A stretch of DNA of 64,000 bases from Verrucomicrobiota bacterium. Lineage in GTDB: Bacteria; Verrucomicrobiota; Verrucomicrobiia; Verrucomicrobiales; DEV007. How positions within the stretch are numbered: the first letter of the stretch is position 1; every line of letters starts with the position of its first letter. The notes under the pieces were generated by a model, which was given only the letters and a program-made list of their open reading frames with translations, ran no database searches and was not told where the DNA came from. Shown here piece by piece: positions 43-7,379 of the stretch. Made by a program: the position numbers and the translations under genes. The stretch spans positions 1 through 64,000 of the forward strand of contig JAGWVU010000008.1 in NCBI GenBank assembly GCA_018970725.1, given 5' to 3'.

Positions 43-76
43 GAACCCCCACCATCCCACGCCGACCGGTGACTCG
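43..76. repeat. 34-bp direct repeat, left copy
   Basis: This stretch matches 7324-7357 in the same orientation at 31 of 34 positions, including a perfect 20-bp core (52-71 against 7333-7352). The two copies bracket the accessory genes between 0.1 and 7.3 kb. It may be an attachment-type repeat of an island or simply a dispersed repeat. No integrase is visible beside either copy. Confidence 0.6.
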
Positions 77-94
77 TGGGCGGGCGGGCTCCAA

Positions 95-119
95 AAGGAA
101 AACCCTTTCAGTTTTCCTT
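95..119. repeat. 9-bp inverted repeat before the nSTAND gene
   Basis: AAGGAAAAC at 95-103 and GTTTTCCTT at 111-119 are perfect inverted arms around a 7-nt loop. It lies 42 bp before the preferred start of the nSTAND gene. It could be an operator or the hairpin of an upstream terminator, but no continuous T tract follows directly. The role is inferred only from position. Confidence 0.4.
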
Positions 120-161
120 GAATATTCCTTTTTCTCCTGCCTAATCTGCGTTCCGCAAGCT

Positions 162-2546
162 ATGGCGGATCCGGTCCTCAATGTTTTCCTTAGCGCGGTC
201 ACCAAGGAACTCGGTTCCTATCGAACGGAAGTGGCCCAAGCCCTGCGAGAGAAAGGGCTACACGTCAAAGTTCAGGAAGATTTCCACACAGGTCCCGGCA
301 CCCTCCTAGAAAAGCTCGACGCCTACATCCAGCAATGCCATGCCGTAGTCTGTCTCATGGGAGATCGCTATGGCGCGGAACCGCCCGATGCCGAACGCAT
401 CAAGATGGGCGGGCAACGCCACTCCTACACCCAGTGGGAATATCTCCTGGCCCGCAAACGGGGCAAATCGATCTACGTCTTCCGCCCCGCCTCGCCCGAG
501 ACCCCGCGCGATCCCGCACACCCCGCCGAGCTCGAGCCGGATGAACTGGCCATACTCCAAAGCGTGTTCTGGCAAACCCAGATCGTCGATCAGGGCACCG
601 ATCGGACTCCGTTCGCGAACCAGGCTGATCTGGTCCGCAAAGTCCTCGTCTGCGACTTCGTCGAAGCCAAACGCAAGTCCGAAGAGCGCCCGCTCCCGCC
701 CCTCAACACGACCAGCCCCTACGTGGGTTTGCGCCGGTTCGAGGAAAAGGACAAGGCGAATTTCTACGGCCGCAAAGCGCTCACTGGTCACCTCCTGGAT
801 CGCTCCGCTGCCATCCCGCTCCTCCTCATCACCGGAAATTCCGGCTCCGGCAAATCCTCCGTGGTCCGAGCTGGGATGATCCCGAAATGGCGCGATGCCC
901 ATCCGGGCGGACACGCCATCGTCTGCACGCCGAACACCAACCCCTTCGAAGGCCTCTTCATCGGCCTCGTCGCCGCCGGGATCGACGCAGAAAAGGCCGC
1001 CTTCCTCAAAACGCCCAGCCCCACCATCTTCCGCGATCTCGTAGCAAGGCTGGAGTCTGGAGAACGGAGGCTGGAGGGACCTTGGCTGATTTTTGTGGAT
1101 CAATTCGAAGAGCTCTTCACCCGCATCCCGGAGAAAGAGAAAAAGCTCCGCGAAACCTTCATCGCCGCCCTCGTCGACGCCGCGGACGCGAGCTTGCCGA
1201 ACCTCCGTATCGTCGTGGCGATGCGGGACGACTTCTTCGGCAACCTCCGGGACCACGAAGCCCTCTTCCGGATCACCGACAAGAACCTGGAGCGGGTGAT
1301 CGCCATGAAAGGCGCGGAACTCCGGGAAATCATCGAAGAACCCGCCTTCAGCCACGGCGTGCGCTTCCAAGAAGGCGTCGTCAAAGAGATCACCGAAGCG
1401 GTAGAAGGCCGGGCCGGGATGCTCCCGTTGCTCCAATACACCCTTGATAAACTCTGGAAACAGGAACGCGACACCACCGGCGGCGAATCCTCCTCATCCC
1501 GTAACGTGGGCATTCCTGCCCGCGATCAAAAACCCCCGCGCAGCGGCACTTCCTCCGCCGGAGGCTTAAGCGACGGCGTCTTAAGCCGCAAATCCTACGA
1601 AGCGATCGGCGGAGTGGAAGGCGCCCTGCAAAAACGCGTCACCCATTTTTACGAATCCAAAACCGTCGACCAACGCCGCGCCGTCCGGAACATCCTCCTC
1701 AGCTTGGTCGAGGTCAGCGAATCGTCCGGCGATTCCACCACCGTTTCCCGCGCCGCCCCGCGCGATGCCCTGGCCCAGGCGGGAAGCGAGGAGATCCTCA
1801 AGGAACTCCTCAACGAGGAACGGCTTCTCATCTCCATCGGTGGGGATGAGAACGAACCGCTCGTGGAACTGGCCCACGAAGCGCTGATCAAGGGATGGGA
1901 AGAATTCGAAACCTGGGTCCGGGAGAGTAAGGAATCGATTCAGATGCGCAACCGCCTCCGGGAGGATGCGAAGCGCTGGTCTGGTCTTAAGGGCAAAGCC
2001 GCCAAAGAGGAGCTTTGGCACGGTTCTCGATTGGAACGGGCCATTGAGTTGGAGCGGGAAGGCGAGTTTGGGCGGATCGGCGGGTTGGGGGATTTGGCGG
2101 GGAAGTTCGTCGAAGCCTGTCAAAAAGAGCGCAAAGCCAAGATCTTCCGATTGCAGATGGCGGTGATCTTCACGTCTCTTCTTTCCGTAGTAGCCACGTT
2201 GGCGACACTGGTCGCCTTGGCCGTCAGCCAAATCGCCCAAGAACAGCGGGGAGAAGCGGAGAAGCAAACGCAGGCTGCTCAAATCCAAGCTGGAAAAGCG
2301 CATGTCCTGCGCGGCGATATCCATCCGTTAAGCAACGACCGGGTCTTCTACCATGCGCGGGCGGTGGGGTTCGAAGGGCTAGGCAAACCCGCTTCTCTGA
2401 TTGAAGACGATGGCGACCGGGGAAAAGCCTCGGCTTGGTTTGCCCTGCGCGAAGTTAGGTTGGACATTCAGGTGGCATTTTTGGTGTCAGGCTCGATGCC
2501 CGCTGAACATCAGGAACTCACAATGATCCCAGGTCATTTTGCCTGA
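162..2546 (+). CDS. DUF4062-nSTAND NTPase, C-terminally truncated
   Basis: This is a predicted intracellular sensor or defence NTPase. A DUF4062 domain at about residues 6-120 (VFLSAVTKELGSYR start, VCLMGDRYG) is followed by a novel-STAND P-loop domain of the nSTAND1 type, entered through YVGLRRFEE. Walker A is GNSGSGKSS near residue 225 and Walker B is WLIFVDQFEELF near 308. A single hydrophobic helix lies at about 664-690. Relatives usually carry WD40 or other repeat sensors after the helix; here only about 100 residues follow, and the last 23 and the stop codon come from a 74-bp repeat inserted at 2480. The frame is open upstream to 69, but the DUF4062 homology begins at ATG 162. The domain calls are firm. 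A phage-defence role follows from family knowledge, and the truncation suggests reduced or no function. Confidence 0.75.
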   Translation: MADPVLNVFLSAVTKELGSYRTEVAQALREKGLHVKVQEDFHTGPGTLLEKLDAYIQQCHAVVCLMGDRYGAEPPDAERIKMGGQRHSYTQWEYLLARKRGKSIYVFRPASPETPRDPAHPAELEPDELAILQSVFWQTQIVDQGTDRTPFANQADLVRKVLVCDFVEAKRKSEERPLPPLNTTSPYVGLRRFEEKDKANFYGRKALTGHLLDRSAAIPLLLITGNSGSGKSSVVRAGMIPKWRDAHPGGHAIVCTPNTNPFEGLFIGLVAAGIDAEKAAFLKTPSPTIFRDLVARLESGERRLEGPWLIFVDQFEELFTRIPEKEKKLRETFIAALVDAADASLPNLRIVVAMRDDFFGNLRDHEALFRITDKNLERVIAMKGAELREIIEEPAFSHGVRFQEGVVKEITEAVEGRAGMLPLLQYTLDKLWKQERDTTGGESSSSRNVGIPARDQKPPRSGTSSAGGLSDGVLSRKSYEAIGGVEGALQKRVTHFYESKTVDQRRAVRNILLSLVEVSESSGDSTTVSRAAPRDALAQAGSEEILKELLNEERLLISIGGDENEPLVELAHEALIKGWEEFETWVRESKESIQMRNRLREDAKRWSGLKGKAAKEELWHGSRLERAIELEREGEFGRIGGLGDLAGKFVEACQKERKAKIFRLQMAVIFTSLLSVVATLATLVALAVSQIAQEQRGEAEKQTQAAQIQAGKAHVLRGDIHPLSNDRVFYHARAVGFEGLGKPASLIEDDGDRGKASAWFALREVRLDIQVAFLVSGSMPAEHQELTMIPGHFA

Positions 2547-2553
2547 CACCAAA
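2480..2553. repeat. 74-bp palindrome-ended repeat, copy 1
   Basis: The element starts TTTGGTGTCAGGC and ends GCCTGACACCAAA, which are perfect 13-bp terminal inverted repeats. It is inserted in the 3' part of the nSTAND gene, supplies its final codons and provides its TGA stop. It differs from copy 2 at a single base. Its size and architecture resemble a MITE or REP-like element. No transposase for it is in the window. Confidence 0.85.
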
Positions 2554-2558
2554 AGGTT

Positions 2559-2632
2559 TTTGGTGTCAGGCTCGATGCGCGCTGAACATCAGGAACTCAC
2601 AATGATCCCAGGTCATTTTGCCTGACACCAAA
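2559..2632. repeat. 74-bp palindrome-ended repeat, copy 2
   Basis: This is a direct copy of the element at 2480-2553, separated from it by only 5 bp (AGGTT). The 13-bp ends are intact. The 162 bp between this copy and copy 3 is an open frame without a recognisable domain and may be a leftover of the lost 3' end of the nSTAND gene. Confidence 0.85.
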
Positions 2633-2794
2633 CGGGGAAAGCCACGGTTGGCGACGGTCGTAACGATCCGAGCGCCAGGAATCAGGCAGATCTGACGCTC
2701 CCGGCGTTGGAGCGGGCACGGCATCCGGCCATGTCGAAGCCTCCCGGCGGGGGCGGGGTGAACTTCCTGGAATTCGATACCGCGGGCAAAGGTT

Positions 2795-2868
2795 TTTGGT
2801 GTCAGGCTCGATGCGCGCTGAACATCAGGAACTCACAATGATCTCAGGTCATTTTGCCTGACACCAAA
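2795..2868. repeat. 74-bp palindrome-ended repeat, copy 3
   Basis: This third copy in the same orientation differs from copy 2 at one base (ATCTCAGG against ATCCCAGG). It overlaps the 3' end of the convergent AAA/DUF4143 gene. Read on the minus strand it encodes that protein's last residues (FGVRQNDLRSL) and its stop codon. Confidence 0.85.
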
Positions 2869-4080
2869 CGCCACCATTTTTTCCAGGAGCGGGGAAAGGT
2901 CGTTCCACGGGAGGACGGTGGCTTTTTCCCGCCTCTGGAGACTGGTGCCACCGTGGACGAGCCAGGGCGTGATGGTCTGGCGGGTGAGCTTGGTGCGCCA
3001 ATAGTCGAGGCCGGAGAAGAAGTCGGAGGCGATGGTCTCACCGGACTTGATTTCGACGGCCTGGAAGGTGTCGGGCGCGGTTTCGATAAAGGCGTCCACT
3101 TCGTGGCCTTCCTTGTCGCGGAGAAAGTGCAGGGAGGGCTTGATGCCTTGATTCGTCTGTGCCTTGAGGAGTTCCGTCATGACCCAGTTTTCGAACAAGG
3201 CCCCGCGTTGGGGATGGGCGCTGATGTGGGCGGGGGTGCGCACGCCGAGGAACCAGGCGGCGAGGCCGGGATCACAGAAGTAGAGCTTGGGCGTTTTGAT
3301 GAGGCGCTTGTTGAGGTTGGTGAACCAAGGGCGCACCAGAAACACCAAGTGGCTGGCTTGGAGCACGGAGAGCCAGGACTCGGCGGTGATGCGGGTGATG
3401 CCCGTGTCCGCCGCGAGCGAGGTGATGTTGAGAAGCTGGCCGATGCGCCCGGCACAGAGCTGGACGAAGCGCTGAAAAGTGGCGAGATCCTGAATGTTGA
3501 GGATTTGCCGCACATCCCGCTCCAGATAGGTGCCGACGTAATCTTGAAGCCAGACGGTGGGATCGACCGGGCGGTCGTGAATCGGCGGGAACAAGCCCGC
3601 GTGGAGCAGGGCGTCCACCGAGTTCGGAGCGCGACCCGCCGCTTGAAGTTCCGCCAGGGAAAATGGCAGCAGCGTGAGCATCGAAGCCCGCCCGGCCAGG
3701 CTTTGGGTGATCGCTCCGATCAGCTCGAACTGACTCGATCCGGTCAGGATGAAACGGCCCATCCGACGGTCCGCATCGACGATGCCCTGGAGGTAGGAAA
3801 ACAGTTCCGGTGCGCGCTGGACCTCATCGAGGATGGCACCATCGGCCACCTGGCGGAGAAAAGCCCGCGGATCCTCGGTGGCGAAAGCACGGTTGTCCGG
3901 ATCTTCCAGCGAGAGGTAGGGAAGCTCCGGGGCGAGCAGGCGGGAGAGTGTGGTCTTGCCGGACTGACGGGGGCCGGTGATGGTCAAGATCGGGAACCCG
4001 GCGAGCCGTTCACGCGCCGCCGCCGCCGCGATTCGCGGGATGGGCTGCGTAGGAAGCGGCGGGCTGGCAACTGCGCTCAT
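2833..4080 (-). CDS. AAA family ATPase with DUF4143 domain
   Basis: This 415-residue protein belongs to the AAA_14/DUF4143 family. These are cytosolic ATPases often found in accessory regions, and their substrate is unknown. Walker A GPRQSGKTT lies at residues 36-44, Walker B with GAILDEVQR near 81-89, and a sensor-like FILTGSSQFEL near 111. The C-terminal half has the DUF4143 nuclease-like pattern, with HEVDAFIE and AVEIKSGE. The last 11 residues and the stop come from repeat copy 3, so the native C-terminus has been replaced; the core domains look complete. The ATG at 4080 fits the family start. It converges on the nSTAND gene. DUF4143 proteins are sometimes linked to toxin-antitoxin loci, but nothing here proves that role. 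Confidence 0.85.
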   Translation of the reverse strand: MSAVASPPLPTQPIPRIAAAAARERLAGFPILTITGPRQSGKTTLSRLLAPELPYLSLEDPDNRAFATEDPRAFLRQVADGAILDEVQRAPELFSYLQGIVDADRRMGRFILTGSSQFELIGAITQSLAGRASMLTLLPFSLAELQAAGRAPNSVDALLHAGLFPPIHDRPVDPTVWLQDYVGTYLERDVRQILNIQDLATFQRFVQLCAGRIGQLLNITSLAADTGITRITAESWLSVLQASHLVFLVRPWFTNLNKRLIKTPKLYFCDPGLAAWFLGVRTPAHISAHPQRGALFENWVMTELLKAQTNQGIKPSLHFLRDKEGHEVDAFIETAPDTFQAVEIKSGETIASDFFSGLDYWRTKLTRQTITPWLVHGGTSLQRREKATVLPWNDLSPLLEKMVAFGVRQNDLRSL

Positions 4081-4187: not shown

Positions 4188-4424
4188 TCAGGAAACTTGG
4201 AAAAAGGATAGAATGGCGCTGCGGAGTGGGGCGGGTCGGAGGTTTCCTCCCACGGTGTTCTTGATCGCGCTGAGGATGGTGTCAACGATGTCCAGATCCC
4301 GGGTGGCCCGGAAGCTCATGCCGAGGTGGCTGAACCACTCGTCGCAGGCAGCTCCGCCAATCAGCACCAGGGAGTCCGGAAAACCTCGGAAGCGCTCGCG
4401 GAAAATGTCGATGCCTTTGATCAT
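4188..4424 (-). pseudogene. Truncated AbiEii-like nucleotidyltransferase toxin
   Basis: The first 46 residues match the start of AbiEii/DUF1814-type nucleotidyltransferases: a short helix, LVLIGGAACDEWF, then FRATRDLDIV, which is the metal-binding D-x-D segment. After that the expected continuation is lost and an unrelated tail of about 32 residues runs to the stop, giving 78 residues where the family usually has 200-300. The start ATG overlaps the stop of the upstream antitoxin-like gene by 4 bp (ATGA), as in a coupled toxin-antitoxin pair. The protein is very likely inactive as a toxin. An alternative is a genuinely short variant, but no such form is known to me. Confidence 0.6.
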
Positions 4425-5416
4425 GGGTGGTCGGAGAACGCCCCATCCAGCACGGTTTGAAGTTCACTTCGTACCCGGTCATCGCCGTCGCCGCGCAGGC
4501 AGAGGACGAGGGAGAGCGGGTCCACGCAGGGACCGTCGCTGAGGAGGCCGGGTTCATAGTTCCACTCCTCAAGGCGGGCGTTGGCTTCTTCGGGGCCGCT
4601 GACGGCTCGGAAGGTTCCCCTTTCGAGCAGGGAGTGGAAGGCCTTGCGTTGCAGCGCCCAGGTCGGGATGGGGTCGTCCTCGACCATGGTCATGCGGGCC
4701 AAGGCGGTGAAGCCCGCGACCAAAGCGGGCGCTCCCGGTTCGTCCCAGCGGATCCAATGGGATTTTCTGGCCGGGCTGGTGAAGAGTCCCTCGGCCATGT
4801 CCCAGAGCTTGCGCCCATCAGCGGCAAACTCGATCACCAACGAGCGGCCGCTCCGGGACGTCTGGCACAGATTATTGGCTTCCCACTCGTCCTTCACCTT
4901 GGTAGCCATCATCCCGGAGTAACCGGTGAGCTTGGCGATCTTCTGCAGCGGCATGCCCTGGAGTGGCCTGCGCAGCAGGTGGTAGATCAGGATGCACTGC
5001 GCGGCCGGCGTGAAGGGCTGGCCTGCCGCTGTGGCCGGTGAAGAGAAGCGCTCGCGCAGGTCCACCATCATGAAGGGCATGAAGAGCTGGCTGCCGGGCA
5101 CGATGAAAGGGATGCCGGCCTGAACCATCCGGTTTCTGGCGTAGGACGCCACCTGCGGGATCACCAGCGTGACTGGCTCGCAGAACTGGGCCTGCATCGT
5201 TTGGGCATGGGCGGCGTATTCCGCCGGGGAGCCGGTTTCCCACCCGGAGGTCTCCAGAGCCAGCAGGTACTCCTGGCCGAATAGTCCGGTGCTGCGGAGT
5301 TGGTAACGCTCCCGCAGGAACAGGGGCAAGCGGTTCTGAGCCGCATCGGGAGAAGCCCTGAGCACGGCAGAGCTTCCGAAGATCGACTCCAGATAACCGG
5401 TCAGGCGCTTTTCCAA
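4421..5416 (-). CDS. AbiEi-like antitoxin / winged-helix protein
   Basis: This 331-residue protein sits directly upstream of, and overlaps, an AbiEii-type toxin fragment. That is the position of the antitoxin/autorepressor in type IV AbiE systems. The middle part (about residues 130-200) reads like a winged helix, with LIYHLLRRPLQGMPLQKIA then LTGYSGMMATKVKDEWEA, consistent with DNA binding. Other parts are not recognisable. The start used is TTG at 5416; an in-frame stop lies a short way upstream and no ATG intervenes. A 31-bp palindrome at 5443-5473 lies just before the start and is a good operator candidate. The assignment rests on context plus the HTH-like segment. Confidence 0.55.
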   Translation of the reverse strand: MEKRLTGYLESIFGSSAVLRASPDAAQNRLPLFLRERYQLRSTGLFGQEYLLALETSGWETGSPAEYAAHAQTMQAQFCEPVTLVIPQVASYARNRMVQAGIPFIVPGSQLFMPFMMVDLRERFSSPATAAGQPFTPAAQCILIYHLLRRPLQGMPLQKIAKLTGYSGMMATKVKDEWEANNLCQTSRSGRSLVIEFAADGRKLWDMAEGLFTSPARKSHWIRWDEPGAPALVAGFTALARMTMVEDDPIPTWALQRKAFHSLLERGTFRAVSGPEEANARLEEWNYEPGLLSDGPCVDPLSLVLCLRGDGDDRVRSELQTVLDGAFSDHP

Positions 5417-7321: not shown

Positions 7322-7323
7322 TT

Positions 7324-7357
7324 GAACCTCCGCCATCCCACGCCGACCGGTGTCTCG
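7324..7357. repeat. 34-bp direct repeat, right copy
   Basis: This copy matches 43-76 at 31 of 34 positions with a perfect 20-bp core. It begins 3 bp after the stop of the helical protein and touches the start of an IS66 transposase relic. It marks the right limit of the accessory block. Confidence 0.6.
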
Positions 7358-7379
7358 CAGGCTGGTTGGAAAGAAAGAT

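Follow-up and report, generated by a model that had tools for sequence, protein, structure and literature searches.

What are the three short, palindrome-ended repeats that separate two convergent genes near one end of this window – 64,000 nucleotides of contig JAGWVU010000008.1 from a Verrucomicrobiota bacterium – and how have they come to supply the ends of both genes? The copies are 74 bp long, 97–100% identical and in one orientation (+): copy a occupies 2480..2553, copy b follows in tandem at 2559..2632, and copy c lies at 2795..2868. Each unit is bounded by 13-nt arms, TTTGGTGTCAGGC and GCCTGACACCAAA, that are perfectly complementary and have 48 nt between them. The coordinates, orientation and perfect inverted ends of the original prediction were all reproduced. 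Exact end motifs occur six times in the window, and motifs with up to two mismatches occur seven times against 1.4 expected. A TTTTT run at 2478..2482 (+), immediately before GGTGTCAGGC, marks the fixed left end of copy a, and a T-run also precedes copies b and c. Folded as single-stranded DNA, both strands form an arm-to-arm hairpin (z −2.8 and −3.4), which is the sole conserved helix of the unit; the 74-mer contains no GT[AG]G-type foot tetranucleotide, and we saw no hairpin within either arm.

The family extends beyond these three copies. The genome of the window (G000) is assembled into 108 contigs totalling 4.9 Mb and is fragmented, so copy numbers are lower bounds. It contains eight full copies at 97–100% identity – the three on C20, which are those of the window, and five more on C94, C60, C39, C11 and C14 – as well as two left-end fragments, both on C42, that break off within the unit. 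The further copies and fragments all keep the conserved ends, so both outcomes named in advance as refuting the original prediction are excluded. In aligned flanks the outer end is constant, reading TTTTTGG and in most cases preceded by GG; this T-run end is identical in nearly all copies, and the DNA outside it is unrelated. The inner end is variable. The copies on C94 and C60 and window copy c terminate just past CCAAAC and have nothing in common outside the unit, and elsewhere common sequence continues past the inner end, for 16 bp on C14, about 95 bp on C39 and 155 bp after window copy b. This 155-bp segment (2633..2787, +), which the inner end of copy b faces, had been overlooked in the original prediction. 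It matches the 3′ flank of a RAYT gene on C11, where it comes after the copy that neighbours the transposase gene, and it shows partial synteny with the RAYT 3′ flank on contig C27 of G001, a genome of the same genus. A reading of the segment as a vapC remnant, based on its translation alone, was dropped. We saw neither an empty site nor movement of the unit.

On C11 the common flank leads toward the 3′ end of an ORF that is cut by the contig end and whose last 100 amino acids read ...VRHFTEGMAIGGKVFLEAMF...GGLMAMRDLRG*. The C11 copy lies 224 bp from this transposase-gene fragment, in the same orientation. A complete gene is present in G001 (C27:24–1049, 341 amino acids), with 81% identity to the last 100 residues on C11. 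Its product matches PF01797 Y1_Tnp (7e-14, above the Pfam cut-off) and the NCBIfam REP-associated tyrosine transposase model REP_Tyr_transpos (1.4e-15, below the curated cut-off), and it contains the motifs GNHWHLL (HxH) and YIELNP; a search of solved structures with the transposase matched nothing. Past the stop of the G001 gene we found two tandem diverged units, at ~180 and ~270 bp (spanning 180–350 bp), that are oriented as on C11 and separated from the gene by DNA partly alignable with the C11 flank. The unit is therefore found just 3′ of the same Y1 (HUH) transposase gene in two genomes, and it is this position that bears out the original suggestion of a RAYT-type transposase. Another Y1 gene, on C29, was rejected as a partner of the 74-bp unit, as its flanks bear a different inverted repeat.

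The 5′ side of the transposase gene carries an inverted end, GGGGTCAGGC, that is related to the unit: on C77, TTGATGGGGTCAGGCAATTTGC... precedes the transposase start and aligns with the unit with a score of 45 (the best of 2000 shuffles scored 34). We identified seven copies of this upstream end in G000, with six distinct chromosomal flanks (C77, C66, C19, C6, C90 and C75). All six are no more than ~250 bp from a contig end, the pattern that a collapsed multicopy element should give. Given at least six different flanks, the transposase element is probably multicopy – though G000 has six such 5′ ends and only one 3′ end, and some of the former may be 5′ fragments. In G001 the upstream end is CGTGCCAGGCAATTTGC, with the species-specific GTGCCAGGC, and both element ends carry the species-specific base. 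On C14 the downstream unit and its 16 bp of flank are joined to the upstream end (TTACGTGCAAATTGCCTGACCCTATCAA) and the gene is absent; judged from its sequence, the C14 copy is a transposase-less deletion derivative that keeps both ends. The 3′ unit was seen on C11 and on G001 C27, and the 5′ end on C77 and five other contigs, never both beside the gene on one contig. A complete element, with the gene between its two ends, is thus present on none of the contigs; those of G000 break inside the gene, and G001 C27 starts at the gene. C11 has a 26-bp end duplication that is absent from the flank-carrying copies, so C11 itself is not necessarily their direct source.

The 74-bp repeats are most likely miniature, non-autonomous units derived from the 3′ terminus of a multicopy element of the RAYT/TIRYT type, a reading to which we assign a probability of roughly 0.8. 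It is based on where the unit lies, on the flank that it shares with the transposase gene, on the relatedness of the two ends and on the derivative that lacks the gene. The element would consist of a REP-associated HUH/Y1 transposase gene between inverted ends, with GGGGTCAGGC upstream and a TTTTTGGTGTCAGGC...GCCTGACACC unit downstream. In the mechanism we propose, the transposase would recognize the inverted ends as single-stranded structures and copy or move the unit, with an exact cut at the outer T-run end and an imprecise one at the inner end; the imprecise cut would sometimes carry along variable flank, and tandem duplications could form at the boundary. A unit landing in or next to a gene would end the reading frame with its stops, either adding or replacing a C-terminal tail, as for the DUF4143 protein of the window, or leaving a truncated protein, as probably for the nSTAND protein. 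It is possible, though we hold this only tentatively, that the element is still active and operates by a one-ended process, with an exact cut at one terminus and a loose cut at the other, such that the 3′ end and variable adjacent DNA spread and gene ends are rewritten. If so, a RAYT would be acting as a transposon and not as a single-copy domesticated gene.

We built a profile from 14 copies and searched it against G001 and 36 other relatives. G001 yielded ten clear copies (E < 1e-9) plus weaker ones, and the 36 other relatives yielded two marginal matches only (E ~0.03). Nearly all clear G001 copies retain a 66-bp core, with mostly identical spacing, despite 20–30% divergence. Stem pair 8–67 is T–A in G000 and C–G in all six G001 copies aligned – a compensatory change that keeps the stem – and sliding the partner strand lowered the proportion of paired cells from 90% to 24–46%. 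With two species only, the change amounts to a single event or a small number of them; it is compatible with a hairpin that is required or with recognition of both ends by one protein. Among 57 genomes the paired-end pattern was found in G000 only, and it was missed in G001 because the ends there are GTGCCAGGC. An exact 20-nt match on a Burkholderiales contig (L029) was taken as chance, as the query stretch alone matches and the second arm is absent.

We examined how the copies affect adjacent genes. A gene encoding DUF4062/TIR-like and nSTAND1 NTPase domains (69..2546, +) ends in copy a. The original prediction that the repeat provides its C-terminus and stop codon (2544–2546) held, and the 23 residues attributed to the repeat proved to be 21 whole residues (LVSGSMPAEHQELTMIPGHFA) and one shared codon. 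The nSTAND homologue in G001 runs well beyond the last aligned residue (699 of 825), and the window protein is probably truncated, though its last ~80 residues ahead of the element lack a homologue that would confirm this. On the other strand, a gene for an AAA_14/DUF4143 ATPase (2833..4080, −) ends in copy c, which supplies the last 11 residues, FGVRQNDLRSL, and the stop at 2833–2835, exactly as predicted. A DUF4143 homologue in G085 (85% identical) matches the window protein up to the element and has its own stop there (...LVEKLTS* / ...ATVLPWNHLAPLVEKLTS*). Because homologues stop natively at that point, a few codons from the window stop, the comparison supports rewriting, and the alignment indicates that copy c replaced or extended the last residues of the DUF4143 protein only. 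Elsewhere, the C60 unit abuts an amine-oxidase remnant of 61 C-terminal residues (profile positions 384–442 of 443), the C14 unit ends an ORF with weak LamG/3-keto-disaccharide hydrolase similarity, the C39 unit lies ~270 bp from a short-chain dehydrogenase gene, and the C94 unit is upstream of a GntR gene. Counts of ORF overlaps were not used as statistics, as spurious ORFs abound at this G+C content. The C-terminus of a recognizable gene is capped by two of the eight copies. The original view that capping is unusual for a REP or MITE is not supported. Most REPs are reported to sit between convergent genes or downstream of them, stop codons are often provided by REPs, and REPs also occur inside ORFs, with GTAG repeats being most often intragenic in O. 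terrae (PMC3733652).

Could the unit instead be a functional gene-end cassette, kept by selection as a two-strand stop for the translation or transcription of convergent genes? All eight G000 copies have stops in six frames, and two genes end inside copies. However, stops in six frames occur in none of 14 same-genus G001 sequences and in 11% of shuffles, implying that capping is not a conserved property; we conclude that it is a by-product. The element also lacks an intrinsic terminator, with neither strand showing a T-run after the stem, and matches no known RNA family in Rfam, and other copies lie in the amine-oxidase remnant, in an ORF that is cut or at a distance from the 3′ ends of genes. 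A cassette function is thus the least probable of the alternatives that we weighed, and highly unlikely. A classical MITE – derived by deletion from an insertion sequence with a DDE transposase, bearing 13-bp terminal inverted repeats and moved as double-stranded DNA – would be consistent with the short size and perfect ends of the unit. We consider this very improbable, as the target-site duplication that flanks DDE-type MITEs is absent from the aligned flanks of every copy, the inner boundary is variable, the gene beside the element in two genomes is Y1 and not DDE, and the upstream end of that Y1 gene is related to the repeat.

An alternative without transposition of the unit, in which the copies spread among remnants of the transposase by gene conversion or segmental duplication, would accommodate the tandem copies, the boundary duplications, the 155-bp flank common to the window and C11, and the degraded transposase pieces found elsewhere in the genome. 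This account is unlikely, in our estimation, given that nearly all copies begin at the same T-run end with unrelated DNA outside it and that the C94, C60 and window c copies have only the unit in common. We also considered an integron attC site; on inspection, the ends did not fit the R-box consensus.

Derivation from a RAYT-type element places the repeats closest to TIRYTs/TIRtrons, described by Di Nocera and colleagues as Y1 transposases between long inverted repeats with a GGGGWSAS motif, the ends of which form moderately abundant dispersed families (PMC3733652). Most TIRYTs belong to subclass 2.1, which has long C-terminal domains and no typical REPs (PMC6006769). The system described here likewise has a RAYT-related Y1 transposase with a long C-terminal extension and dispersed families of ends that are also clustered (eight full and two partial units, seven upstream ends); its upstream end GGGGTCAG fits GGGGWSAS, and there is one mismatch to the motif in the element arms GGTGTCAG. 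It departs from TIRYTs/TIRtrons in that what is dispersed is a fixed, two-armed unit of 66–74 bp originating from the 3′ end, that flank of the transposase gene accompanies some copies, and that the gene seems to be multicopy. The 74-bp repeat is not named in the TIRYT/RAYT literature that we examined; the family is new, and its kind and its effect on gene ends are already known.

REPINs (PMC3116915) and their RAYTs offer a second parallel: a short inverted doublet whose conserved ends enclose a more variable middle, copies that adjoin a RAYT gene, tandem clusters, and units that are probably non-autonomous and mobilized in trans. In contrast to REPINs, the unit has no GTAG/GGAG foot, its arms do not form hairpins of their own, copies number about ten and not hundreds, and transposase flank is carried over. 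Rickettsia palindromic elements and intragenic REPs (PMC3733652) are similarly palindromic repeats that lie within ORFs or at their ends and change the protein product, but the unit has no CGTC/GTAG tag, and it ends frames without being read through. IS200/IS605 elements have subterminal hairpins and no terminal inverted repeats, whereas the unit has perfect 13-bp ones.

These observations bear on how RAYT-type transposases spread short repeats, within a TIR-associated branch that is scarcely studied. G000 and G001 provide snapshots of a transposase-adjacent unit, units with 16–155 bp of flank, a gene-less two-ended derivative and bare units, as well as matching changes in both element ends between two species – a combination that makes the substrate of the enzyme directly testable. 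The rewriting of gene ends is a clean but ordinary example of repeats altering protein termini.

Several other repeats were observed in the same genomes. End-exact partial tandem duplications are present on C66 (L099), C19 (L100), C11 (L016:6390–6432) and G001 C80 (L040); they include a repeated TTGATGGGGTCA, or 26 bp on C11, and are possible traces of end processing. The C29 Y1 transposase gene (L019) is bracketed by an inverted repeat at 4309–4414 and 4883–4981 (76% over 106 bp), implying that G000 holds several transposase-repeat pairs. Tandem CCTGTCCCCGTCCAAA repeats on C68 (L043, 2530–2672) lie just upstream of another RAYT-like gene and reach the contig end. C46 (L076, 43–947) and C60 (L014, 1–921) have ~940 bp in common at 79%; the stretch joins a transposase fragment (~residues 29–62) to downstream sequence present on both contigs, which looks like duplication of an already broken transposase. 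A second, unrelated family of ~72 bp (CCCCCACCATCCCACGCCGACCGGTGACTCGTGGGCGGGCGGG...) occurs in the window at 42–113 and 7323–7365 and elsewhere at C94:156 and 4010, C60:922, C42:1105 and C11:46847, with several contigs carrying both this family and the 74-bp unit. One copy of this ~72-bp repeat contains the GTG listed as the start of the nSTAND ORF, so translation probably begins at the ATG at 162.
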